In this document: piece by piece, positions 16,763-33,204 of the stretch | Position numbering within the stretch: position 1 is the first letter of the stretch | Layout of the letters: each line of letters begins with the position of its first letter | From: an uncultured Anaerolineae bacterium | GTDB lineage: Bacteria; Chloroflexota; Anaerolineae; Anaerolineales; Villigracilaceae | Reading direction: 5' to 3' | Length of the DNA: 33,469 bases | Assembly: GCA_903875215.1 (NCBI GenBank) | Contig: CAIQVH010000027.1 | Location: 1 to 33,469, forward strand | Position numbers and translations under genes: made by a program | Notes under the pieces: generated by a model | What the model saw: only the letters and a program-made list of their open reading frames with translations | What the model was told of the DNA's origin: nothing | The model's database searches: none

Positions 16763-19438
16763 TCAGATTAATTTTAGTTCCCGCGCCCGGACAATGGCCT
16801 GGGTGCGGCTGGTGACATCCAGTTTACTGTAGATGCGGGTGATGTGGGTTTTGATGGTGCTGAGGGAGATGACCAGTTTTTCGGCGATTTCCTGGTTCGA
16901 GAGACCAGTCGCCAGCAGGCGCAGGACTTCGGCTTCGCGTTCGGTCAGCGATTCGGACAGGTTCCCGGCCTGGGGCTGGCTGCCAGGCAGCAGGGCCAGC
17001 AGGCGGCTGGCATATTCGGCGTGCAGGTCGTGCTGGATGGCGAGTTGCAATAATTCTGCCACGGGCGCGCCTTCATCCACAAACAGGCGCACGTAGCCTT
17101 CCGGTTCGGCCAGGGTCAGGGCGCGCTGGAATTTTTGCAGGGCGTCGGGGGTGCGTTTGAGCAGTTGCAGCGCCAGGGCTTGCAGCAGCAGGATTTCGAT
17201 GACGCTGCCCGCGCGGGCGGATTGCTGCGCCGAGGTGAGCATCCGCTCGAGGAAACGGTAGACTGCCTGCGGGTCGGAGGCGCGGGAGCGGCGCGCTCGT
17301 TCGAGGTGAATCCGCGCCAGGGTCAGGGCTTCATCTTCACGCTGGAAAATGACCTCCGCCTCCGCCAGGGGGTGAACGGCCAACCAGTCTGTTTCCCCGC
17401 TTTTGAGCAGTCGCACCCGGAATTGTTCCACCCAGGCGTGGAGCAGTTCACTGCCCGAGGTGGCGGCGCGGCTGGCGGATTCGAGCGCCTGTTCCACAGC
17501 CTGGATTTCGCCGCGAGCCGCTTTCAGGCGCGCCAGCGAAACCAGGCTAAAGACCAGATAACGCTGGTAACCGGCCCACTCACACTGCCGGATGCTGGCC
17601 GCAAGGATTTGTTCGGCGGCGTCGAGGTCGTTGCGCTCGCGCAGAAGATCGCCCAGCAAGGTGTACGCCTGCGCCACCGGGAAGAGGGGATGATAGCGCT
17701 CGCCGCCCCAGGCCAGCACCTCGCGGCAGATGGTTTCGGCGTGGCGCAGTTGGCCCATTTTGACGCGCAGGCGCGCCAAATCCATGCGCATGGTCAGGCT
17801 GGCGGGGTACTGGTCAAGCGCCTCGGCCATGGCCAGCGCCTCGGAATAAGCCTGGCTGGCGGCAGCAAAGTTATCGGCATCGCGGCAGGCATCGCCGAGC
17901 GCAGCCAGGACGGCAAAACGGCCCAGTTTTTCCCCGGCGGGCAGGTGTGAGAGCGCTTCGCGTGCCAGGCGAATGCCCTGCTCCGGTTTGCCGTGGTTGA
18001 CCGAGACAAACGTGCGCAGCGCAAAAACCTGCGCCAGCATCTCGCCAACCTGGGATGGCAGGTTGGCGGGCCAGGATTCAACGGTTTCAGGTTCCAATCC
18101 CAGTGTGCGCAGGGCAGCGCGCAGGTGCGGTTCGACGGCGTCAATATCGGTCATGAAAAAATGTGCCCAGGCAAACATGAGCGGGATGCGCGGGTTTGAA
18201 AGGCTCATCTCGCGCGGCAGGGTCTCCAGCCACTTGAGCATGGTGCCGATTTCACTGCGCATCGCCAGCGCCGGGGTGGCATTGACCATCATCCCAATCG
18301 CCAGGTCATACTCCTGGGCTGCCAGGGCGTATTTGATAGCCTCGAAAGATTGTTTATGGGCCTCCAACCAGAGGGCGGCCCGGTGATGCAGTTCGGCCAG
18401 TTCGGGGGCGGGGAACTGCTCGGCGCGGTTTTTCAGCAAGTCGGCAAACAGGTGATGATAACGGTACCACTGCCCCTGCTCATCGAGCCTGACGATGAAC
18501 AGGTTTTCACGCTCCAGTCTGTTGAGCATGGCCCGGCCATTATTCTGCCCGGTCACGGCATCGCACAGCCCGGCAGTCATCCGCTCGAGGATGGAGGTTT
18601 TTAGCAGGAAATCACAGGTTTCGGGAGATTGGCGCGAAAAAACTTCATCGGCCAGGTAATCGAGAATATAACGGTGGCTGCCGGTAAAGTCGCGGACGAA
18701 ACGGTCAATATCGCTGTGTCCGCTCAGGGCCAGGGCGGCCAGTTGCAGACCGGCAGCCCAGCCTTCGGTGCGGTCATCCAACGCGGACACCTGCGCCGGG
18801 GAAAGCGTTAATCCGCTGGATTGGTTGAGAAAAGTCTCCGTCTCGGCGCGGGTGAAACGCAAATCGGGGGCGTGGAGTTCGTTCAACTGGCGACGCGCCC
18901 GCAGCCGGGAAAGCGGCAGGGGCGGGTCGCTGCGGCTGGCGATAACGATGTGAATACTATCGGGGATGTAATCGAGCGCAAAAGCCATCGAAGTGTGGAC
19001 GGCGGGATTGTGGATGACGTGATAATCGTCCAACACCAGGACGACCGGCGCTGTCCCTATCGGAAGCGCGGCGAAGTCGTTGAGCAAGGCCGCCATCGGT
19101 GACTCCAGCGGCACGCCCTGCGCCGCCGCCTGCGAAATGGCCTGGAGATGCTCATCCAGCCCCATATTTAAGGCGCGCAGGGCCGCCATCACGTAAGTGA
19201 TAAAACGCCCGTGGTCGTTATCGCCCTCGTCCAGGGCCACCCAGGCCGCGGCCAGTTTTTTCTCTTTCAGCCATTCGCACAGCAGGGTGGTTTTCCCAAA
19301 GCCTGCCGGGGTGGAAACCAGGGTCAGTTTTCTCGAGAGACCGGCCTGCAAACGCGCCACCAGTTGCGGACGCGGCACAAAGTCGCTGCGCAGGGGCGGG
19401 ATATGCAATTTCGTGGTCAGCAGGGCGTTAGCGGGCAA
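16763..19438 (-). CDS. LAL-family (MalT-like) LuxR transcriptional regulator
   Basis: A large ATP-dependent regulator of 891 residues, very near the length of E. coli MalT (901). It has an N-terminal STAND ATPase with Walker A PAGFGKT (residues 44-50) and a Walker B-like VLVLDDYH, a long TPR-like helical middle, and a C-terminal LuxR helix-turn-helix ([15 protein letters not shown] ... [16 protein letters not shown]). I set the start at TTG 19438 ([15 protein letters not shown]): AAAGGA lies 6 nt upstream, and the farther TTG at 19483 lies upstream of the TATAAT box. It follows the sugar operon and probably senses an oligosaccharide, by analogy with MalT and maltotriose; that is inference. 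Confidence 0.87.
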
Positions 19439-19460
19439 AGCGAGTCCTTTGGTCAGGATG

Positions 19461-19512
19461 ATTATAGCAAATCGGCCCGCCAAATCCCACCGATAACCGG
19501 TTGGTCAGGTGG
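19461..19512 (-). promoter_or_regulatory. Extended -10 promoter and dyad for the LuxR gene
   Basis: The minus strand has TGCTATAAT (TATAAT at 19466-19461), an extended -10 box, with the predicted start about 16 nt before TTG 19438. Upstream, a dyad (CCACC at 19487-19491, GGTGG at 19508-19512) is centred on the perfect palindrome AACCGGTT (19495-19502). It could be an operator or simply the 3' hairpin of the preceding gene. No -35 box is evident. Confidence 0.5.
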
Positions 19513-22604: not shown

Positions 22605-23489
22605 TTACTTGTTTTCCAGCAAAAACTCCAGCGGAATGTGCACCCGCTCGCGCCAGGAGCATTCGGAGTGTTCGGCGCCTTCAAATTTGCGCGTCAGCCA
22701 GTCCACGCCAAAGGTGAACCCGGCGGTGCGCATGTGCGCGTCCATGCGGGTTTGGAAGGGTTCGTAGGCGGCGTCGAGGGTTTCGGTGCCGTAGTCGAAG
22801 TAGATTTTATTTTTTCCCGGTTTGGGCAGGACGCTGGCGAAATAATCCACCATCAGGTTTTCCCCGGCCACCCAATGCGTGGAGAGACAGCCCGCGCCGC
22901 CAAAGACCTGCGGGTACTCGGTCAGGGCGTAGAGAGAAATCAGCCCGCCCATGCTGGAACCCATCACAAAGGTGTCGGGCTGGCCGGGGCGGGTGCGGAA
23001 GGTGGCGTCGATGAAGGGTTTGAGTTCCGTCACCAGGAATTTTAGATAGGAATCGGCGCACATCTTGCCAACCAACTGGTCGGGGAAACGGGCGGCGAAA
23101 GCCCGGCCCTGGGGCATGTCCGCCGGTTTTTGGGGCAGGTACTCGCCCCAGCGGTTCCCGCCAATGTTCCAGATGCCAACGACGATTGCGCCGGGGATTT
23201 TGCCATCCTCCATCAGCCGGAGGATGGCTTTGTCCACGCCCCAGGGTTCGCCACCGTAGGAGTAGCCGGGCAGGAACAGGTTTTGGCCGTCGTGCATGTA
23301 GAGGACGGGGAAGCTATCCCTCACCCCGGCCCCTCTCCCGGGGGGAGAGGGGGGAGATTCTACGGGGGAGAAGGGGCCGTAGTTTGGCGGGAGCCAGATG
23401 TCGACGTGGCGCGGGGGGACGAGGCGGGAGGGGAAGTTTTCGTAACGGAGCAGGGTTCCGGGGGTGTGAGGGAGGGGGATGGGGTTCAT
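22605..23489 (-). CDS. Enterochelin esterase-like alpha/beta hydrolase
   Basis: A 294-residue esterase of the Fes/IroE/esterase D-like group, which includes enzymes that remove feruloyl or acetyl groups from polysaccharides. Nucleophile elbow GSSMGG with Ser179; His274 in GAEHSECSWRERV; the probable acid is Asp232 or Asp239. The LYMHDGQNLF strand (63-72) is diagnostic. Residues about 38-60 (GPFSPVESPPSPPGRGAG...) are encoded by a class A repeat lying in frame at 23318-23376 and probably form a Pro/Gly-rich surface loop. No Shine-Dalgarno sequence is seen: a class B element sits 13 nt upstream of the ATG. No signal peptide. Confidence 0.82.
   Translation of the reverse strand: MNPIPLPHTPGTLLRYENFPSRLVPPRHVDIWLPPNYGPFSPVESPPSPPGRGAGVRDSFPVLYMHDGQNLFLPGYSYGGEPWGVDKAILRLMEDGKIPGAIVVGIWNIGGNRWGEYLPQKPADMPQGRAFAARFPDQLVGKMCADSYLKFLVTELKPFIDATFRTRPGQPDTFVMGSSMGGLISLYALTEYPQVFGGAGCLSTHWVAGENLMVDYFASVLPKPGKNKIYFDYGTETLDAAYEPFQTRMDAHMRTAGFTFGVDWLTRKFEGAEHSECSWRERVHIPLEFLLENK
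23318..23376. repeat. Class A repeat inside the esterase coding region
   Basis: CCCTCACCCCGGCCC followed by the perfect hairpin CCCCTCTCCC-GGGGGAGAGGGG and a degenerate second half. The same opening is found in the intergenic class A copies. It keeps the esterase frame open and is translated as about 20 Pro/Gly/Ser-rich residues. Confidence 0.75.
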
Positions 23490-23598: not shown

Positions 23599-25365
23599 TT
23601 ACACGAGAAATGCCCCGGTTTGGGCGGGTAAATCTACCACAAGTGCGCCATTTTCTTGAGTGACTGGGCAATTGTTGAGCGCGTCGCGCATTAGCGGGAG
23701 GCCGGGGAGGAAAATTCGCCGGGGTTCGGTGGACAGGTTGAAGGCGGCCACCACCACCCCGGAGGCAGATTCGCGGGCGTAGGCGAAAATTTGGTCGTCG
23801 AGGTGCAGCAGGCGGCGGGGGCTGTCGAGCAGGAGCGGGTGCGCGCGGCGCAGTTCAATCAGGCGGCGGAAGGTTTCGCGCAAATCGGCATCCTGTTCAT
23901 CGCCCCATTTCATCGGCAGGCGGGCTTCCTCGAAAATGCCGAAGTCGTTCTGGTGAATGGGGCGTTCCTGCGAAACCCCGGCTTCGGTGCCGTTGTAGAC
24001 AATTGGCGGGCCGGAGAGGGTGAACAGCGCCAGCGCGGCCAGTTTGACCCTGGCCTTGTCGCCGTTGGAAATGAACAGGAAACGGTTCATGTCGTGGTTG
24101 TCGAGAAATGCCGGGCGCGAAAAATCTGTCGGGAAATAGGCTTCGTGCTCGGCCAGGAAAGACTCGAAGCGCGAGAGCAGCCAGTTGCCATGCCCAAAAG
24201 TCTCGCGCAGGGCGCGGCAGAGCAGGAAGTCGAGCGTACCGTCCATCGTCCCGGCGTAGGAGAGTTGGGTTTCGGGGGTGTGGATGATTTCGCCAAAGGT
24301 CCAACAGTCGGGGTTGGCCTGGCGGCAGGCGCGGCGGAAATCGGCCCAGAAATCGTGCGAGGGGCCGTAAGCGTAGTCGAGGCGGAAACCGTCCACGCCC
24401 ATTTCGAGCCAGAAGCGGGCGCTTTTGAGCAAATAGTCGCGCGCCGGGCCGGGTTTCAGGTTCAGTTCGGGCAGTTCGCGCACGCCGAAGTAGGTGGCGT
24501 AATCGTCGGGCCAGTCCAGCCAGGTGAACCAGTCGCGGGTTGGGCTGTTGGGGTCGGTTTTGGCGGATTGGAAGGCCGGGTGCTGGTCGGAGCAGTGGTT
24601 AGCGACAAAATCGAGAATCAGGCGCAAGCCGCGCGCGTGGGCTTCGGCCAGCAGTTCCTTGAAGTCGTCGAGGGTGCCGAAACGCGGCTCGATGGCGAAA
24701 TAATCGAGCGCGTCGTAGCCGTGATGGGTCAGGCTGGGGAAAATGGGCGAGAGCCAGATGGCGGTGAAGCCCATCTCGCGGATGTAATCCAGTTTTTGGA
24801 GCACGCCGCGCAGGGTGCCGCCGTAAAACCCGGCCAGGGTGTCGGGATTTTTCCAGGGGACGTTGTCGCCGGGGTAAAAGCGGTCAACAAAGACGTGGTA
24901 GACGACGGCCTCCCGCGCCCAGGCCGGAATCGGGTCGTTCGCGGCCCAATACGCGAAGCGGGTGGCCTCGGCGGCGGTGGCGGACTGGTTATCGGCGTAG
25001 ACCCAGGTCTCGGAACCGGCGACGTGGGCGGCGAGGCGGTAATGCACCATCGTCCCGGCGGGCTGGGGCGGCAGGATTCCGCGCCAGGTGCGGATGTAAT
25101 CGCCCAGGGCGTTGTCCCAGGTCACTTTAACGGGAGCCAGGTCGAGGGCTGATTCCGCGCCACTTTCAGGCTGGAACCAGCAGGTTAAACGGTCAAACGG
25201 CTGCGGGCCGGAGGTGGTTACGGTCAATTCCACCGGCTGTTCCGGCTCCACATCCAGCGGATTCCGCCGGTGAAGGTGACGGACGCCCGTCAAACTGGAT
25301 TGGTGCATGGCTAAACGGGTCTCCGGGTCAAACAATTGGCCGAAAATTTTGTCGCGGTACGACAT
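23599..25365 (-). CDS. GH13 maltogenic amylase/neopullulanase-like glycosidase
   Basis: A 588-residue GH13 enzyme of the cyclomaltodextrinase/neopullulanase/maltogenic amylase type. Residues 1-140 form a beta-sandwich (CBM34-like), followed by the catalytic barrel from WAREAVVYHVFVDRF. Catalytic residues: nucleophile Asp330 (GFRLDYAYG), acid/base Glu359 (TFGEII) and Asp425 (FLDNHDMNR). DFVANH at 252-257 is region I. No signal peptide, so it acts in the cytoplasm on imported maltodextrin or cyclodextrin. It starts 2 nt after the malG stop, so it is part of the mal operon and strongly supports an alpha-glucan substrate for the transporter. Confidence 0.88.
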   Translation of the reverse strand: MSYRDKIFGQLFDPETRLAMHQSSLTGVRHLHRRNPLDVEPEQPVELTVTTSGPQPFDRLTCWFQPESGAESALDLAPVKVTWDNALGDYIRTWRGILPPQPAGTMVHYRLAAHVAGSETWVYADNQSATAAEATRFAYWAANDPIPAWAREAVVYHVFVDRFYPGDNVPWKNPDTLAGFYGGTLRGVLQKLDYIREMGFTAIWLSPIFPSLTHHGYDALDYFAIEPRFGTLDDFKELLAEAHARGLRLILDFVANHCSDQHPAFQSAKTDPNSPTRDWFTWLDWPDDYATYFGVRELPELNLKPGPARDYLLKSARFWLEMGVDGFRLDYAYGPSHDFWADFRRACRQANPDCWTFGEIIHTPETQLSYAGTMDGTLDFLLCRALRETFGHGNWLLSRFESFLAEHEAYFPTDFSRPAFLDNHDMNRFLFISNGDKARVKLAALALFTLSGPPIVYNGTEAGVSQERPIHQNDFGIFEEARLPMKWGDEQDADLRETFRRLIELRRAHPLLLDSPRRLLHLDDQIFAYARESASGVVVAAFNLSTEPRRIFLPGLPLMRDALNNCPVTQENGALVVDLPAQTGAFLV

Positions 25366-25367
25366 GG

Positions 25368-26264
25368 TTATTCTTTCACAGCGCCGACGGTTAAGCCGCC
25401 CGCAATCTGGTCTTGCAAGGCCAGGTAGATAATCATCACCGGCAGGGCGCCGATGAGCGCGCCCGCGGAGAACGGGCCCCAGTTTTGGGCGAACTGGTTG
25501 TTGGTAAAGAGCGCCAGGCCGACCATCAGGGTGTAGTTTTCGGCTTTGGAGAGCAGGATGCGAGCCAGGACGAAGTCGCCATAGGTGCCGATGAAGGCCA
25601 GGATGCCGACCACGACCAGGATGGGGCGCAGGAGCGGCAGGAGCAGTTGGGTGAAAATCTGCCAGTTGGTGGCACCGTCGAGCATGGCGGCCTCGTCGAT
25701 GGCGCGCGGGATGGTGTCCAAAAAGCCTTTCATCAGCCAGATGTTGATGCCCATCGAGCCGCCCAGGTAGACCAGGATCAGCCCGGCGTGGGTTTCCAGC
25801 CCCAGCCAGGGGATGATGTGGCCGGTTTGCTCAATCATCAGGTAGATGGCAACCAGCGCCAGCAGGTTGGGGAAAACCTGGATGAGCAGGATGGCCTTGA
25901 GCATGGTGATGCGGCCCGCAAAGCGCAGGCGCGAGAAGGCGAAGGCGGCCATGGTGGTGATGGAAATGGAAAGGATGGTGGTGATGCCGGAAACCTTGAT
26001 GGAGTTCCAGACCCATTTCCAGAAGGGCAGGAGCGGGTCGTTGAACAGTTTTTCAAAGTTCTGGAACCCGGCCTGGGGGGGAATCAGGCTCTGGGAGCCG
26101 AGCTGGCTGGTGGGGTCGAGGGCGGCGGAGAAAATCCACAGCACCGGGAAGACCGAGAAGACCACCAGGATGACGGCGATGACCAGTTTGATGACCAGGC
26201 TGACACGATTCATGAAGCGCTGGGACGAGCGCAGGTTCTGGTAGGTGCTGGCGAGTTTAGACAT
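25368..26264 (-). CDS. malG: Maltodextrin ABC transporter permease MalG
   Basis: A 298-residue, six-helix binding-protein-dependent permease. The EAA loop that contacts the ATPase reads EAAMLDGATNWQIFTQLLLP. I start it at ATG 26264 (MSKLASTYQN), preceded by a strong GAGGAGGT RBS; the frame extends to 26393 but that part overlaps malF and is low-complexity serine. It overlaps the end of malF by 8 nt. It pairs with MalF in the membrane. No ATPase subunit gene is in the operon. Confidence 0.9.
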   Translation of the reverse strand: MSKLASTYQNLRSSQRFMNRVSLVIKLVIAVILVVFSVFPVLWIFSAALDPTSQLGSQSLIPPQAGFQNFEKLFNDPLLPFWKWVWNSIKVSGITTILSISITTMAAFAFSRLRFAGRITMLKAILLIQVFPNLLALVAIYLMIEQTGHIIPWLGLETHAGLILVYLGGSMGINIWLMKGFLDTIPRAIDEAAMLDGATNWQIFTQLLLPLLRPILVVVGILAFIGTYGDFVLARILLSKAENYTLMVGLALFTNNQFAQNWGPFSAGALIGALPVMIIYLALQDQIAGGLTVGAVKE

Positions 26265-27849
26265 TTTTACTGACCTCCTCCCACATGTTGGTGAATCGGA
26301 ACTGGACGAGGGTGATGGTGCCAACGATGAAGAAGACGATGATGCTGATGGCCGAGGCGAGACCGTACTGGACGCCGCGCCCGCCCGAGGCAAAAGCCAG
26401 GTTATAGACGTAGCTGATCAGGATGTCGGTGTGACCGGCCTGGGTGGTTGCGCCGACAATCGGCGGGCCGCCGTTAATGAACAGGTAGATCAGCCCGAAG
26501 TTGTTGAAGTTGTAGACGTAGGAGGCAATCAGCAGGGGGCCGACCGCGACGAGCAGAAGCGGCAGGGTGATGTTGCGGAAAGCCTGCCAGCTGTTCGCGC
26601 CGTCAATTTTGGCGGCTTCGTACAAATCGGCGGGGATGGATTGGAGTGCGCCGCTGGTAATCAGCATGAAGTAGGGATAGCCCAGCCAGAGATTGACCAG
26701 CAGGACACCGGCCTGGGCCCAAATCGGCTCGGAGAACCAGGGCGGGGAGAAGCCAAACCAGGTTTTGGTCAGGTGGTTGATGATGCCCAGGTCGGGGTTC
26801 ATCATGCCGCGCCAAATCAGGACGGTGATGACCGAGGGGATGGTGTAGGGAATCAACAGCAGGGTGCGGAAAACTTTTTTCAACGGGAAATCTTTATCGT
26901 TGAACATCAAGGCGATTGCCAGCCCCAGGCTGAAGGTGGAAAGCACGCTCAGGGTTGGGAAAACAAAGTTCCAGACCAGGATTTGCACCAGCGGGCCGCG
27001 CAAGGCCGGGCTTTGGACAAAATTGACAAAGTTCTGGAAGCCAATAACCGCCCGGTAGCCGGGGACGATTGCCTTGCCGCTTGTCCGCGAGGTGTAGGTG
27101 CCGTTAACATCGTTGTAGACTTCGCCGTTTTCCTGGTCGGTCAGGGTGTTGGCGGCGGGGTCATAAGCGTAGCGGGGTTTGAGTTCGGCGGCTTCGGATG
27201 GGGAACGAATCTGGATGGTTTTTCCCGCCTCGCCGAACTTGATGTTCGGAAGTTCCTTGTCGGTGGCGGCCAGGATGGGGTTCAGGCGGGTGAAGCCATC
27301 GATGGAAGTTGGAATGCCATTCGAATCAGCCTGCCCGATGCCGGGGTCGCCGGGTTTGGCTGGGACGAGGGCCGAGCCAACCTTGCCGAGGTAGGTGTTG
27401 CCGTCCGGGTCAATCAGCCAGAGGGCGTAGGAATTATCTGCAGCCTTGAAGGCAGTCCATTTGTAGGATTTGCCAGTCTTGGGCAGGTAGGTTTCTTTTT
27501 CAATGACGGCCAGCGCCTGTTGCTGGGTCAGCAGGTGACCATCCCCGTAGTTGGTGAAGGCGATGTATATGGTGAACAACATCGGGTAGATGGTGAACAA
27601 GACCAGGAAGGAAAGCCCGGTCACCATCCAGCGGTAGGCGTAGGCCTGGGGCAGCAGGAGGACGAGATTTACGAGCAGGAAGACAACTCCCACCACGGCG
27701 GCCAGTTGGAGATAACCTGACTGGACAGCCTGGACGATGAACCAGCCTGACCCCAGGTCAAAGACCAGGAGAAAAAACAGACGCAGGAGCACGGAGAAGG
27801 GATTTTCTGCCTGTTTTTTTGGTTGTGGTACAGGATTGTTTGCAGTCAT
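26257..27849 (-). CDS. malF: Maltodextrin ABC transporter permease MalF
   Basis: A 530-residue permease that follows the E. coli MalF plan, including the large P2 periplasmic loop (about residues 101-285) that docks onto MalE. Recognisable MalF-like stretches are YIAFTNYGDG, LLLIPYTIPSVIT, LWLGYPYFM and the EAA loop EAAKIDGANSWQAF (411-424). Preceded by AGGAG at good spacing from ATG 27849. The presence of P2 marks the system as the maltose/maltodextrin type rather than a general sugar permease, which usually lacks this loop. Confidence 0.92.
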   Translation of the reverse strand: MTANNPVPQPKKQAENPFSVLLRLFFLLVFDLGSGWFIVQAVQSGYLQLAAVVGVVFLLVNLVLLLPQAYAYRWMVTGLSFLVLFTIYPMLFTIYIAFTNYGDGHLLTQQQALAVIEKETYLPKTGKSYKWTAFKAADNSYALWLIDPDGNTYLGKVGSALVPAKPGDPGIGQADSNGIPTSIDGFTRLNPILAATDKELPNIKFGEAGKTIQIRSPSEAAELKPRYAYDPAANTLTDQENGEVYNDVNGTYTSRTSGKAIVPGYRAVIGFQNFVNFVQSPALRGPLVQILVWNFVFPTLSVLSTFSLGLAIALMFNDKDFPLKKVFRTLLLIPYTIPSVITVLIWRGMMNPDLGIINHLTKTWFGFSPPWFSEPIWAQAGVLLVNLWLGYPYFMLITSGALQSIPADLYEAAKIDGANSWQAFRNITLPLLLVAVGPLLIASYVYNFNNFGLIYLFINGGPPIVGATTQAGHTDILISYVYNLAFASGGRGVQYGLASAISIIVFFIVGTITLVQFRFTNMWEEVSKNV

Positions 27850-28046: not shown

Positions 28047-29642
28047 CTACTTGATTGTAACGGTCAAGATGTGCGTTTCGGGGTCGTAGGAGAAAGAGAC
28101 TTCGCCATCGGCTGTGAGCGAGAATTTGATGTTGTCGCCGCCGGCCTTGCCATCGACACCGTAGTTGGTCGTCCAGGTGCCGTCCAGCGCAACTTTGACT
28201 TCGTAATCGCCAGCCTTGAGTTTGAAGGGGCCGGAGACATAGCTTTTTCCGTCGTCGCTCTTCTGCATCGCGGTAGCGGCGCAATCGGGTTTCCAGTTGC
28301 CAGCGTCGCCGTCACCACAGCCGGCCTGGTTCTGGTAGGAGCCGGGGACGTTGACCATGCCGGTCAGCGGGTTGGCGATGACATCGCGGATTTTCTTGGC
28401 GGCATCCTGAAGGGCGGCATCGGGAGCCTGTTTGCCCTGGAAAACCAGCGTGATGGCGGTGCCCCAGTTGGCCCAGACCGCGCCCATCGCGGGGATGGCG
28501 GGCATCGGCTGGGAGTTGGCGCCAGCCTGGCCGAAGGCCAGCAGGTCGGGGTCGGAAATCTTGTCGAAAACGGGTTTATAGGCCGAGGGGCGGTTGCCGC
28601 CGGTCTGGAGCTGGGACATCACATCGTCAGTGGCGATGTATTCGGTCAGGAAGGACTGGGCCAGCAGCAGGTTCTGGCTCTTGGCATTCAGCATAAAGCC
28701 CTGGACGCCAGAGAAGGGTGCGCCGTTGCTGGGGAAGGTGCTCATGCCGTAGGGCACTTTGGCAGTCTTGATGGCATCCAAATCCCACGGGCCGGTGATA
28801 AAGAAGGGTTCTTTGCCATCGGTGAACAGCTTGAGGGCGGTGTTGCCATCGATGGTGGAGCTCAGGCAGCCGTTTTTGACATTGTCATCGAGGAACTGAA
28901 CCGCCTTGATGAAGCCTTCGTTATCGAGGCCGACATCCTGCGGGTTGTAGTTGCCCTGGGCGTCTTTGCCGAAAATGTAGCCGCCGAAGGAGGTATAAAG
29001 TGAATACAGGTGATAATCGGGGCTGCCAAAGCCGAGGCAGTAGGTGGCTTTGCCATCGTCCTGGAGCTTCTTGCCAGCCGCCATCAAATCTTCCCAGGTT
29101 TTGGGCAGGTCGGTAACCAAATCTTTATTGTAGAACAGGGCCACGTTCTCAACGGCGTAGGGCATGCCGTAGAGTTTGCCATCAATGGTGAAGGCATCCA
29201 GCGCGGGTTGCAGGAAGGAGGCTTTCTTGTCGCCCAGGTCGAGCGGCGCGACGAGGCCGTTGGCAACCAGCACACCGGCCTGGTCGTGCGGCACGATGAT
29301 AATATCGGGGCCGTTGCCGGTCGGGGCGGCGGTCTGGAACTTGTCGCGAATCTGGCCGAAATCGGTCACCTGGATATCCACCTTGACATTATATTTCGCC
29401 AGGAACTCATCGGCTACCTGCTTGAAGACCGGCGCTTTGGTGGCGTCGACCCACATGACGAGGGTCGCGGCGGGTTCAGCGGGCGCTTCGGTCGCGGGAA
29501 CAGCGGTGGGGGCCTCGGCTGGCGCTTCGGTCGCGGCGGGCTGTTCAGGGGCGGTTGTGGCAGTCGCGCCGCCGCCGCAGGCGGCCAGCAGCATGGAGAC
29601 CGCGACGAGCAGGGAAAGAACGAGATACAGTTTGCGGAACAT
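28047..29642 (-). CDS. malE: MalE-like maltodextrin-binding lipoprotein with C-terminal X25 module
   Basis: A 531-residue solute-binding lipoprotein. Signal peptide 1-21 with lipobox LLAAC (Cys22), a Pro/Ala/Thr/Glu linker (about 23-60), then a MalE-type type I binding domain (about 61-430; e.g. FFITGPWDLDAIK, GGNRPSAYKPVFD). Residues about 431-531 form a separate beta module whose signature (GNWKPDC, YEVKVALDGTWTTNYG, VSFSYDPETHILTVT) matches the X25 domain of amylopullulanases. Start set at ATG 29642 (MFRKLYLVLS) with GGAG; the frame reaches 29678. It is the first gene of the operon with malF, malG and GH13. Two cysteines (442, 454) in the X25 region might bond. Confidence 0.9.
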   Translation of the reverse strand: MFRKLYLVLSLLVAVSMLLAACGGGATATTAPEQPAATEAPAEAPTAVPATEAPAEPAATLVMWVDATKAPVFKQVADEFLAKYNVKVDIQVTDFGQIRDKFQTAAPTGNGPDIIIVPHDQAGVLVANGLVAPLDLGDKKASFLQPALDAFTIDGKLYGMPYAVENVALFYNKDLVTDLPKTWEDLMAAGKKLQDDGKATYCLGFGSPDYHLYSLYTSFGGYIFGKDAQGNYNPQDVGLDNEGFIKAVQFLDDNVKNGCLSSTIDGNTALKLFTDGKEPFFITGPWDLDAIKTAKVPYGMSTFPSNGAPFSGVQGFMLNAKSQNLLLAQSFLTEYIATDDVMSQLQTGGNRPSAYKPVFDKISDPDLLAFGQAGANSQPMPAIPAMGAVWANWGTAITLVFQGKQAPDAALQDAAKKIRDVIANPLTGMVNVPGSYQNQAGCGDGDAGNWKPDCAATAMQKSDDGKSYVSGPFKLKAGDYEVKVALDGTWTTNYGVDGKAGGDNIKFSLTADGEVSFSYDPETHILTVTIK

Positions 29643-29701: not shown

Positions 29702-29744
29702 ATTATATAAACTCGCCGTTGCGCAGGCGTTGCGCGGAAGTTGC
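29702..29744 (-). promoter_or_regulatory. malE promoter with three 11-bp-spaced SARP-like operator repeats
   Basis: The minus strand has TATAAT (29707-29702), with the start expected about 52 nt before the malE ATG. Upstream, GCAAC occurs three times at exactly 11-bp spacing (29744-29740, 29733-29729, 29722-29718), the two nearest as GCGCAACG. The nearest 7-mer GCAACGG ends 8 nt from TATAAT, covering the place of a -35 box, which is otherwise poor. Direct repeats at an 11-bp pitch over the -35 region are the known binding pattern of SARP activators. Confidence 0.6.
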
Positions 29745-29761
29745 AACCACCCCATTCCCCG

Positions 29762-29873
29762 CCTTCCCCCAAATACGGACAAAAAAACGTCCGTATTTGG
29801 GGGAAGGAGCCAAAACCTGGCAGAAAACGGGTTTCTCCTTCCCCCATTTTCAAAAACCGAAAATGGGGGAAGG
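29762..29873. repeat. Double-hairpin cruciform between malE and the SARP gene
   Basis: Two perfect inverted repeats: CCTTCCCCCAAATACGGAC (29762-29780) with its complement at 29789-29807 (19 bp), and CCTTCCCCCATTTTC (29837-29851) with its complement at 29859-29873 (15 bp). Imperfect outer arms CCCCATTCCCCG and CCGGGAAGGGGG surround both. The architecture is that of class A with a different sequence. Confidence 0.85.
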
Positions 29874-29892: not shown

Positions 29893-29904
29893 TATAATTC
29901 CTCC
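29893..29904 (+). promoter_or_regulatory. -10 box giving a leaderless SARP mRNA
   Basis: TATAAT (29893-29898) ends 6 nt before ATG 29905, so the normal start point falls on the A of the start codon. No Shine-Dalgarno sequence is present. No -35 box is recognisable; its place overlaps the end of the second hairpin at 29859-29873. Confidence 0.55.
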
Positions 29905-32900
29905 ATGCCCCGCCTGACCCTGCGCCTGTTCGGTCTTCCCCGCCTCGAATTGGACGGCCAGCCCGTTGTGACTGACCGCCGCAAGGCGCTGGCCCTGTTG
30001 ATTTATCTCTCCGTCAACGGGCTGGACTATACCCGCGAGACGCTCGCCACCCTGCTGTGGCCCGACCAGGATACTAGCCATGTGCTGGCCTACATGCGCC
30101 GCACGCTCTGGGAAATCGGCCAGGCCTTTGGGCCGGGCTGGGTGCGGACGGAACGCGACATCGTCGGGTTGTCGCCGGATGCGCGGGCGCAGATGTGGAT
30201 TGACGTCAGCCGTTTTCGCACGCTGGTGGCGCAGAGCCGCGCGCGTGACAGCCGCCAGGATGTGATTCCACTGCTGGCGGAGGCGGTGGACCTGTACCGG
30301 GATGACTTCCTGGCCGGGTTCGCCCTGAAAGAGGCCTCGCTATACGAGGAGTGGGTCAGCGCCCAAAGCGAGGCGCTCAAACGGGATTATTTCCTCGCGC
30401 TGGAGGCCCTGTCGCAGGCGCGGGCCAGGGCCGGGGAGTTGGAGAAAGCCATCGAAACGGCCTCCATCTGGGCCGGGCGCGACCCGCTCAACGAGTCGGC
30501 GCACGGGCTGTTGATGGAACTCTACGCCCGCAACGGGCAGGCCAGCGCCGCCATCCGTCAATACCAGGAATGCGCGCGGGTGCTGATGCGCGAGTTGGGC
30601 CTGGAACCCTCGTCGGGGACGAAAATGCTGTTCGAGCGGCTCAAAAAGGAAGCGGGGCGGAAAGTCGCGGAACCCGCTCCCGGCGCGGGGAAAGCCTCCA
30701 CGCGGCAAAATCTCCCAGAATCCACCTATTCCACCTCCTTTTTCGGACGCCGCAACGAGCTGACCGAACTGGAAAAACTGCTGCGCGACCCGCAGGTGCA
30801 TCTCATCAGCATCCTGGGGCCGGGCGGGGCCGGGAAAACGCGCCTGGCGCTCGAGGCGGGCAGAATCCATAGCCCGGCTTTTGCGGATGGGGCCTGTTTT
30901 GTGCCGCTGGCGGCGGTTTCGCGGCCTGAATATGTCGTTTCGTCGATTGCCGAGGCGCTTGGGGCGCGGTTTGCGGCATCCGAAAGCCGCTCGCAACTGG
31001 CGCAACTGGCTGAATTCCTGGCTCCGCGCCACCTGCTGCTGATTTTGGACAACCTGGAGCATCTGCAAGCCGGTTCGCGCGCCCTGCCCGACCTGGTGGA
31101 AACCTTGCTGAAAGCCGCGCCGCGCCTGACGGTGCTGGCGACCTCGCACGAGCGGCTCAACCTGGCGCAGGAGTGGGCGCTGAACGTAGGCGGGATGCCC
31201 GTCCCGGCGGCGGAGGCGGGCGACTGGGAGCAGTACGGCGCGGTGCAGTTGTTCATCCAGAATGCGCGCAAGGCCGCCGGGACGCTGCGCCTGGGCGAGG
31301 CCGACCGCCGGGCGATTATCCGTATTTGCCAGTTGGTGGGCGGCCTGCCGCTCGGGCTGGAACTGGCCGCGGCCTGGGCCAGGATGCTCACCTGCGAGGA
31401 AATTGCCGGGGAAATCGAGCGCGGGCTGGACTTCCTGAAAACGCCGCACAAAAACGTGGTGGAACGTCACCAAAGCCTGCGCGCCACCTTTGAATATGCC
31501 TGGAACTTCCTGAGCGAGACCGAACAACAGGCGCTGGTGCGGCTGGCGGTCTTTCGCGGCGGATTCCGGCGCGAGGCGGCAGGGGCCGTGGCCAGGGCCG
31601 CGCTCACTACCCTGGCCGAACTGGCCGATAAATCCTTTATCCAGCGCGATGAAACCGGCCGTTTCGACATTCACCAGTCGCTCAAGCCGTTTGTGCTCGA
31701 AAAACTGGGCCAGCATCCCGCCCTGCAAACCGAAAGCGCCGCCCGGCACGGCGCGTACTTTGCCGCCTTCACCGACGAGCGCCGCCTGGCCCTGCGCGGT
31801 CACGGTCAGCGCGCCGCCCTCGACGACCTGACCGCCGAACTGGACAACCTGCTGGCGGGCTGGGGCTGGGCCATCGCGCAGGGCGGCGAAAGCGATGTGC
31901 AGGCCTACTACGAGGGCCTGTTCCGCTATTTCGACCTGCGCAACCGCTTCCAGGATGCTGAAGCGCTCTTTGGCCGCGCCGCCGAGCAGTGGCAGGCGCG
32001 CGCCGGGAGCGAAAACGCCACCTTTGGGCTGCTGCTGGCCTGCCAGGCCTGGTTTTGCAACCGTCTCAGCCACATCACCCAGGCGCACCAACTGCTGCTG
32101 CGCAGTCTCGAACTCCTGCGCCGCCTCGCCGCCCGTCCGCAACTGATGTTCGCCAACAGCCTGGCGCTCTACGTTGTGCCAATGATGGACGACATGGCCG
32201 AAGTCGAGCGCATCGCCCAGGAGTGCCTGGCCTACTACCAGGCACAAAACGACCGCTGGGGCATGGCCCAGGTGCTGCCGTTTTTCCATCGCATCAAAAC
32301 CCCGCAGGGCTTGCAGGACGCCATCCGCCTGCACAACGAAACCCTGCAAATCCAGCGCGAAACCGGTGATTCCGCCGGGCTGGCCGCCACGCTCACCTCG
32401 CTCGGCGAACTGCTGCACTACGCCGGCGACTACGAAAACGCCCGCCGCTGTCACCAATCCAGCCTGGAGATTGCGCGCGAACTCGACGACCGGCGCGTCA
32501 TCGCCGCCAGCCTCGATTATCTTGGTTTTATCAACCGCCAGTTGGGGGAGTTTGATTTGTCCCGCCGCCAGCATCAGGAAAGTATGGAAATTTCACGGGA
32601 ACTGGGGAATGCGCTGGGGATAGCGGGTTCGCTCGACAACCTGGGTATGATTGCCCTCAACCAGAGGGATTACCCGGAAGCCTTGTCGCTGTTTCGACAG
32701 GCCTTGCCCCTGCGCCGCGACTCGGGCCAGACAGGCTCCGTGGCGATTTCCCTCGAACACATCGCCACCGCCGCCCTGCGGCTGGGTGACCTGGCCCTGG
32801 CCGAATCCTGTCTCCGGGAATCGCTCGCCCTGTTTGCCCGCGACCCCGAATGGGCGCTGACCTCCCACGCCCTCAACCGCCTCGGCGACCTGGAACTGAC

Positions 32901-33204
32901 CCGCGGCAACCTCCCCGCCGCCGAATCCCACTACCGCGCCGCGCTGGAGACCGCCACCCAGCACGAAAGCATCTCCGTCGCGCTGGACGCCTCCCTGTGC
33001 CTGGTCACCCTCGCCGCCGCCCAGCGCGACCAAGTCCGCGCCGTGGAACTGGCCGCCTACGTCGAGCATCATCCCGCCAGCGAGTTTGCGCTCAAAGACC
33101 GGGCAAAAGAAAAATTATCGGAACTGGAAAAGATCATCGACCAGGTCGCCTTTTCAAATGCTATCCTGAAAGGTCATAATATTCTGACCCTGACTGCCGA
33201 ATGA
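29905..33204 (+). CDS. SARP/AfsR-like regulator (BTAD, NB-ARC ATPase, TPR)
   Basis: A 1099-residue regulator. Residues 1-95 form an OmpR-like winged-helix DNA-binding domain (LTLRLFGLPRLELDG, RKALALLIYLSVNG). Residues about 96-240 form the bacterial transcriptional activator domain, ending in RVLMRELGLEPSSGT. An NB-ARC/AAA ATPase follows, with Walker A GPGGAGKT (305-312) and Walker B LLLILDN (377-383). From about 680 on there are TPR repeats (e.g. GDYENARRCHQSSLEIAREL). I start at ATG 29905 because the frame upstream only translates repeat DNA. It is divergent from malE, whose promoter carries SARP-type repeats. AfsR is the best-known protein of this layout. Confidence 0.9.
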   Translation: MPRLTLRLFGLPRLELDGQPVVTDRRKALALLIYLSVNGLDYTRETLATLLWPDQDTSHVLAYMRRTLWEIGQAFGPGWVRTERDIVGLSPDARAQMWIDVSRFRTLVAQSRARDSRQDVIPLLAEAVDLYRDDFLAGFALKEASLYEEWVSAQSEALKRDYFLALEALSQARARAGELEKAIETASIWAGRDPLNESAHGLLMELYARNGQASAAIRQYQECARVLMRELGLEPSSGTKMLFERLKKEAGRKVAEPAPGAGKASTRQNLPESTYSTSFFGRRNELTELEKLLRDPQVHLISILGPGGAGKTRLALEAGRIHSPAFADGACFVPLAAVSRPEYVVSSIAEALGARFAASESRSQLAQLAEFLAPRHLLLILDNLEHLQAGSRALPDLVETLLKAAPRLTVLATSHERLNLAQEWALNVGGMPVPAAEAGDWEQYGAVQLFIQNARKAAGTLRLGEADRRAIIRICQLVGGLPLGLELAAAWARMLTCEEIAGEIERGLDFLKTPHKNVVERHQSLRATFEYAWNFLSETEQQALVRLAVFRGGFRREAAGAVARAALTTLAELADKSFIQRDETGRFDIHQSLKPFVLEKLGQHPALQTESAARHGAYFAAFTDERRLALRGHGQRAALDDLTAELDNLLAGWGWAIAQGGESDVQAYYEGLFRYFDLRNRFQDAEALFGRAAEQWQARAGSENATFGLLLACQAWFCNRLSHITQAHQLLLRSLELLRRLAARPQLMFANSLALYVVPMMDDMAEVERIAQECLAYYQAQNDRWGMAQVLPFFHRIKTPQGLQDAIRLHNETLQIQRETGDSAGLAATLTSLGELLHYAGDYENARRCHQSSLEIARELDDRRVIAASLDYLGFINRQLGEFDLSRRQHQESMEISRELGNALGIAGSLDNLGMIALNQRDYPEALSLFRQALPLRRDSGQTGSVAISLEHIATAALRLGDLALAESCLRESLALFARDPEWALTSHALNRLGDLELTRGNLPAAESHYRAALETATQHESISVALDASLCLVTLAAAQRDQVRAVELAAYVEHHPASEFALKDRAKEKLSELEKIIDQVAFSNAILKGHNILTLTAE

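Follow-up and report, generated by a model that had tools for sequence, protein, structure and literature searches.

The window analysed here, a 33,469-nucleotide stretch of DNA from an uncultured Anaerolineae bacterium of the Villigracilaceae, contains a gene for a large SARP (29905-33204, plus strand) that is divergent from a maltodextrin operon on the minus strand. The operon encodes a MalE-type maltodextrin-binding protein with a C-terminal X25 domain (28047-29642), the permease MalF (26257-27849), a MalG-type permease (25368-26264) and a GH13 alpha-amylase or neopullulanase-like enzyme (23599-25365), with a putative esterase (22605-23489) as the next downstream gene. MalF passes the corresponding NCBIfam model (394.5 against a cut-off of 392); for MalE and MalG the best NCBIfam models are MalE and MalG, yet the scores lie under the cut-offs. 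Against PDB structures, MalE hits maltose-binding proteins and the amylase hits neopullulanase and cyclomaltodextrinase. The neighbours of the SARP are thus maltodextrin transport and hydrolase genes and not an antibiotic cluster, which confirms the operon that the original prediction, made from the letters of this DNA, had placed here. The X25 domain of the binding protein (residues 430-525) is of a kind named after a pullulanase.

Upstream of malE, on its own strand, three GCAAC units (29744-29740, 29733-29729 and 29722-29718) follow one another at a pitch of exactly 11 bp and form a predicted SARP operator (29718-29744, minus strand). Read from 29744 to 29702, the malE strand has the form GCAAC-N6-GCAAC-N6-GCAAC-N10-TATAAT, the last heptamer (GCAACGG) being followed after exactly 8 nt by the -10 element of the malE promoter (TATAAT, 29702-29707, minus strand). 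This promoter has no TTGACA-like -35 element, and the array occupies the -35 position. The SARP start codon is 160 bp away from the edge of the array and some 200 bp away from the -10 element. The arrangement first described, with three repeats at an 11-bp pitch over the -35 region, 8 nt from a perfect TATAAT and a divergent SARP about 200 bp away, is therefore present in the letters. Its comparison with the known direct-repeat architecture of SARP sites also holds: the part of PMC10936776 available to us gives the rule as direct repeats at an 11-bp pitch over the -35 region with the 3' repeat 8 bp from the -10 element, and the pitch and spacing found here are equal to it. SARP-type operators are direct repeats with a pitch of 11 or 22 bp that overlap the -35 region, and the array is of this form.

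The product of the divergent gene combines a winged helix, a BTAD, an AAA/STAND ATPase and TPRs. Pfam places the BTAD at residues 99-246 (E = 9.4e-26) and recognizes AAA_16 (34.0 bits, cut-off 32.6) and TPR_12 (112.8 bits), while NB-ARC, at 21.4, is under its cut-off of 23.5; large SARPs of the STAND type are marked by an NB-ARC-like ATPase and TPRs that follow the SARP domain. Pfam returned no winged-helix family for residues 1-98 at an E value of 0.001, and this domain is assigned because residues 8-246 match AfsR in phmmer and because of a predicted model. The AlphaFold2 model of the 248 N-terminal residues (14-row alignment, mean pLDDT 93.5) contains a winged helix and a helical BTAD, and a Foldseek search with it gave AfsR and EmbR chains as the sole matches at E ≤ 0.001, the top solved structures being those of AfsR (8k60/8hvr). 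An N-terminal OmpR-type winged helix followed by a BTAD is the SARP arrangement, and the identity first proposed for this gene is borne out by sequence and predicted fold alike. The score against the NCBIfam AfsR equivalog is 76.1 bits against a cut-off of 1430, so that the protein is a large SARP but not AfsR. Nor does it belong to the MalT family, with no GerE match in Pfam and a TPR_MalT score of 32.1 against a cut-off of 45.

A second TATAAT (29893-29898, plus strand) stands 6 nt before the ATG of the SARP. The same TATAAT-N6-ATG arrangement (29893-29905 in the window) is found in the related genomes G002, G064 and G072, with N5 in G247, and since the -10 element lies so close to the start codon, the SARP is probably translated from a leaderless mRNA. 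Between the array and the SARP there are two long perfect hairpins (29762-29807 and 29837-29873) framed by CCTTCCCCCA...TGGGGGAAGG. A third exact copy of the second hairpin occurs at G000:C19:225235-225271, the frame has no further match in the genome of the window, and G002 has a hairpin at the equivalent place that is differently filled.

The array is conserved together with the SARP. A search of 152 family genomes with the SARP protein, in which at most five candidates were scored per genome, gave orthologues in G002 (86% identity), G072 (75%, cut by the end of a contig) and G064 (67%), and a sample of 400 genomes at the level of the order added G247 (79%) and also G198 (44%); the source genomes are mostly MAGs. 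All five SARP orthologues found with at least 67% identity, the window included, have an intact array, and the spacing to the malE-side TATAAT is N10, or 8 nt from the last repeat, in all five promoters. In G002, G072 and G064 the array is flanked by the SARP gene and a divergent gene for a sugar-binding protein, and in G247, where the SARP and malE are in tandem, it begins about 20 nt past the SARP stop codon, before malE. The original prediction had staked itself on conservation of the repeats in orthologous promoters, and with five of five at an invariant N10 it survives. The flanks have drifted, with a mean pairwise identity among the five promoters of 0.26 for the 40 nt upstream and 0.37 for the 40 nt downstream of the -10 element; the 6-nt gaps stand at 0.64 and the spacer at 0.57, and the value of 1.00 for the pentamers and TATAAT is by construction, the exact pattern having placed the promoters. 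The four arrays of the family are unforced evidence in that they were reached through the SARP protein and a two-repeat pattern and again by a mismatch scan; the G247 locus was likewise reached through the SARP protein and also by a pattern scan. In G064 the array has been kept though the transporter is not orthologous (33, 31 and 36% identity to MalE, MalF and MalG; 71% for the amylase). None of 17 malE homologues (38-57% identity) that are not beside this SARP has an array, or even a pair of repeats, in the 320 nt upstream.

In its own 3.77-Mb genome, the triple GCAAC with TATAAT occurs at one site (reversed-pattern control, none), and for two GCAAC units with TATAAT and up to two mismatches the locus is the sole match. 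Across the 152 family genomes, a scan allowing up to three mismatches gave 14 sites, four with none and ten with three. The four are in the genomes with a close SARP orthologue, outside which no site with zero to two mismatches was found, and the ten are at chance level, because the reversed pattern gave nine matches in the same genomes. A chance origin of the array was considered and is opposed by its uniqueness in the genome and by this family-wide scan.

Taken together, the array and its uniqueness, its joint conservation with the SARP, the fold of the SARP and the content of the operon make it very probable that the repeats are the operator of the divergent large SARP, which is predicted to activate the malEFG-amylase genes. 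Three other readings were weighed. The array might be the operator of a LacI-type or other palindrome-binding sugar repressor, with TTGCGCAA inside it as a half-visible palindrome. LacI-family factors are common for maltose genes according to the part of PMC4052901 at hand, which counts for such a repressor, and TTGCGCAA does occur in the array in three of the five genomes; it is missing from the other two, the window among these, whereas all five carry the GCAAC direct repeats. The same portion of PMC4052901 describes LacI motifs as even palindromes of 16-22 nt, mostly with a central CG, and no centre common to the five promoters averages at least five of eight palindromic pairs. A repressor site is thus very unlikely.

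More improbable again is that the array serves primarily as the autoregulatory site of the SARP, with malE merely its neighbour. Its position between two divergent genes in four of the five genomes would suit this, but in G247 the array is upstream of malE only, past the SARP stop codon, no array being found upstream of the SARP, and the malE-side TATAAT at N10 in all five promoters argues against regulation of the SARP alone. In G064 the array is also 8 nt from the SARP's own -10 element, in the opposite orientation, so that there the SARP may regulate itself in addition.

Most improbable of all is that a MalT-like LuxR-type STAND protein encoded in the same window (16763-19483, minus strand) binds the repeats and runs the operon, since for all its TPR_MalT and GerE domains, and although MalT acts on maltose genes, its gene lies 9 kb from the malE promoter and none of the other four genomes with the array encodes a close orthologue (best matches 40% in G002, 39% in G247 and 39% in G072, and in G064 30% over residues 16-432 only). 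A 36% homologue of this MalT-like regulator is found on the SARP contig of G002.

The reading as a SARP, an operator array and a maltodextrin operon is supported at the level that sequence can reach. Most likely, the SARP activates the operon and so does the job of MalT with the DNA-binding half of AfsR; we infer activation from the position of the array relative to the -10 element. SARP protomers would occupy the 11-bp direct repeats next to one another, over the missing -35 element, and would recruit sigma region 4 and RNA polymerase to the TATAAT, a good -10 element, thereby activating the malEFG-amylase genes. As in STAND proteins, activation is probably gated by the C-terminal half with its ATPase and TPRs, presumably under the control of ATP, and the signal sensed by this half is perhaps a maltodextrin, by analogy with MalT.

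MalT of Escherichia coli has the same ATPase and TPR sensor architecture and the same target function, maltodextrin uptake. It carries a C-terminal LuxR-type HTH, and this domain is absent from the window SARP by Pfam scan, in which TPR_MalT is under its cut-off. AfsR of Streptomyces coelicolor, a large SARP of the STAND type, shares the DNA-binding domain, BTAD, ATPase and TPRs. AfsR and MalT are both named as STAND regulators in the section of PMC10936776 that we have, which gives MalT as activated by maltotriose and ATP and describes AfsR site geometry (11-bp repeats over the -35 region, 8 bp to the -10 element) that is the same as in the window. In contrast to the three GCAAC units and consensus TATAAT found here, AfsR has a two-repeat afs box and a weak -10 element; its target is afsS rather than a maltodextrin operon, its recognition helix has T88 and R92 where the window SARP has R and E, and the two proteins share about 23% identity. 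Three heptameric direct repeats overlapping the -35 region are described for small pathway-specific SARPs in the part of PMC10972967 available. ActII-ORF4 and DnrI, two such SARPs, have three-repeat operators over the -35 region like that of the window; unlike the window SARP, they have no ATPase/TPR half, and their targets are antibiotic clusters.

To our knowledge, SARPs are known almost wholly as activators of antibiotic genes. A SARP operator that is conserved and has a sugar operon as its single target would mean that the same machinery serves carbon supply, and the joining of AfsR's DNA-binding half to a MalT-like sensor plan would make maltodextrin a concrete candidate signal for large SARPs. 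Among the matches listed in the open-access PMC literature, none was on the control of a sugar-uptake operon by a SARP.

Upstream regions of large SARPs were scanned with a motif-free finder (at least three hexamers at a pitch of 11 or 12, with a TANNNT resembling TATAAT 7-11 nt on). An array with its own -10 element was found in the divergent direction in 28 of 162 regions, four of these belonging to the window group, whereas the SARP strand and the reversed strings gave 5 each and six shuffles 0, 0, 0, 1, 0 and 1; the regions are the best-matching part of match lists and not a random sample, and at least three of the 28 arrays (L277, L280 and L283) have poor units and are probably false. Removal of same-locus duplicates leaves 158 regions and costs no array locus. 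Regions that were too short (L130, L211 and L219) or had runs of N (L180 and L228) were left out, although L228 does carry an array. The pitch is 12 and then 11 in most of the 28, and 11 and 11 in the window group. An earlier strict scan (8 nt, 11, 11) of 106 SARP regions at p ≤ 0.01 had given 10 divergent regions and 3 on the SARP's own strand, with 3 and 4 in reversed strings and none in 27 sugar-binding-protein control regions on either strand, a modest excess that became clear once a first pitch of 12 bp was allowed.

Of 22 divergent first genes extracted, nine were scanned, comprising two DUF6789-like membrane proteins (one under the cut-off), EthD, ydhR, GNAT, a homocysteine S-methyltransferase and three unmatched products. 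Since these targets are varied and include no sugar transporter, the maltodextrin operon looks like one recruit, and one case in a wider radiation of local regulators. The use of a SARP here, originally called unusual for the family, is so by comparison with the Streptomyces literature and less so in this order, where many large SARPs appear to act on non-antibiotic neighbours.

The arrays of these relatives suggest which SARP residues read which DNA letters. Units were aligned by the -10 element (first base = -12) and helices by sequence alignment, and with G247 added, 29 arrays fell into 24 clusters when grouped at 70% N-terminal identity; the helix is readable in 23 of these. ACG occupies -24 to -22 in 17 of the 23 clusters. 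Base -25 varies with the residue at AfsR position 88 (permutation p = 0.0067) and base -26 is linked to residues 89, 91 and 92 (p = 0.007, 0.001 and 0.001), these p values being uncorrected for 56 position pairs and the clusters sharing ancestry. Base -25 is A in 12 of the 16 clusters that have R at 88 and in one of the seven with other residues (Fisher p = 0.019); both clusters with Q have G, and the two with H have C and A. Base -26 is T in six of nine clusters with S at 91 and in one of 11 with W (p = 0.017). L236 (R with G) and L276 (H with A) are exceptions. The AfsR residues T88 and R92 contact base pairs -25/-36 and -27/-38, respectively (PMC10936776, in the part seen), a comparison in which the offset to AfsR numbering may be one base out. 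We would give about even chances to the broader reading that AfsR-like SARP-STAND regulators have undergone a large radiation in the Anaerolineales, each being locked to its divergent neighbour by an 11/12-bp array with a readable code (R/A, Q/G and H mostly with C or A for 88 and -25, residues 89-92 for -26, and an ACG core), of which one branch was recruited to a maltodextrin operon. With such covariation between operator and helix, SARP targets in uncultured Chloroflexota would become predictable.

The triple-GCAAC pattern does not by itself identify a SARP, as a pattern search of genome contigs for three GCAAC units and N10 TANNNT gave 46 loci with a SARP by tblastn (1e-5) at four. Exact TATAAT is present at five of the 46, namely the four SARP loci and a Lachnospiraceae locus (L101) without a SARP match. 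In a class sample of 249 genomes there was one 1-mismatch site besides the window (G624), where the listed neighbouring ORFs do not read as a SARP by eye. Three Chloroflexota loci, two titled Kouleothrix and one AL-N1, have GCAACAT direct repeats before a TACANT-like box (L086 166-208, L094 7377-7419 and L110 928-970), followed in L086 and L110 by a gene resembling acyl-CoA dehydrogenase; none of the three has a SARP match by tblastn, and another regulator may use these arrays. Tandem 11-bp repeats of the GGCAACGACAC type occur in L078, L095, L102, L107, L114, L115 and L117 (Paludibacteraceae, Bacteroidales and Lachnospiraceae titles). A conserved GCAACTTCGCGGCAACTTTACTGCAAC array lies upstream of a probable secreted-protein gene in two Anaerolineales genomes (L063, L065, L100 and L120), with no SARP match by tblastn for L100 and L120. 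The SARPs of L243, L272, L254 and L234 share LRRTLS helices and GTAACG arrays, and each lies opposite a small membrane protein with which it forms a conserved SARP-target pair; the membrane protein is DUF6789-like in L243 and L272, and those of L254 and L234 are alike by eye.
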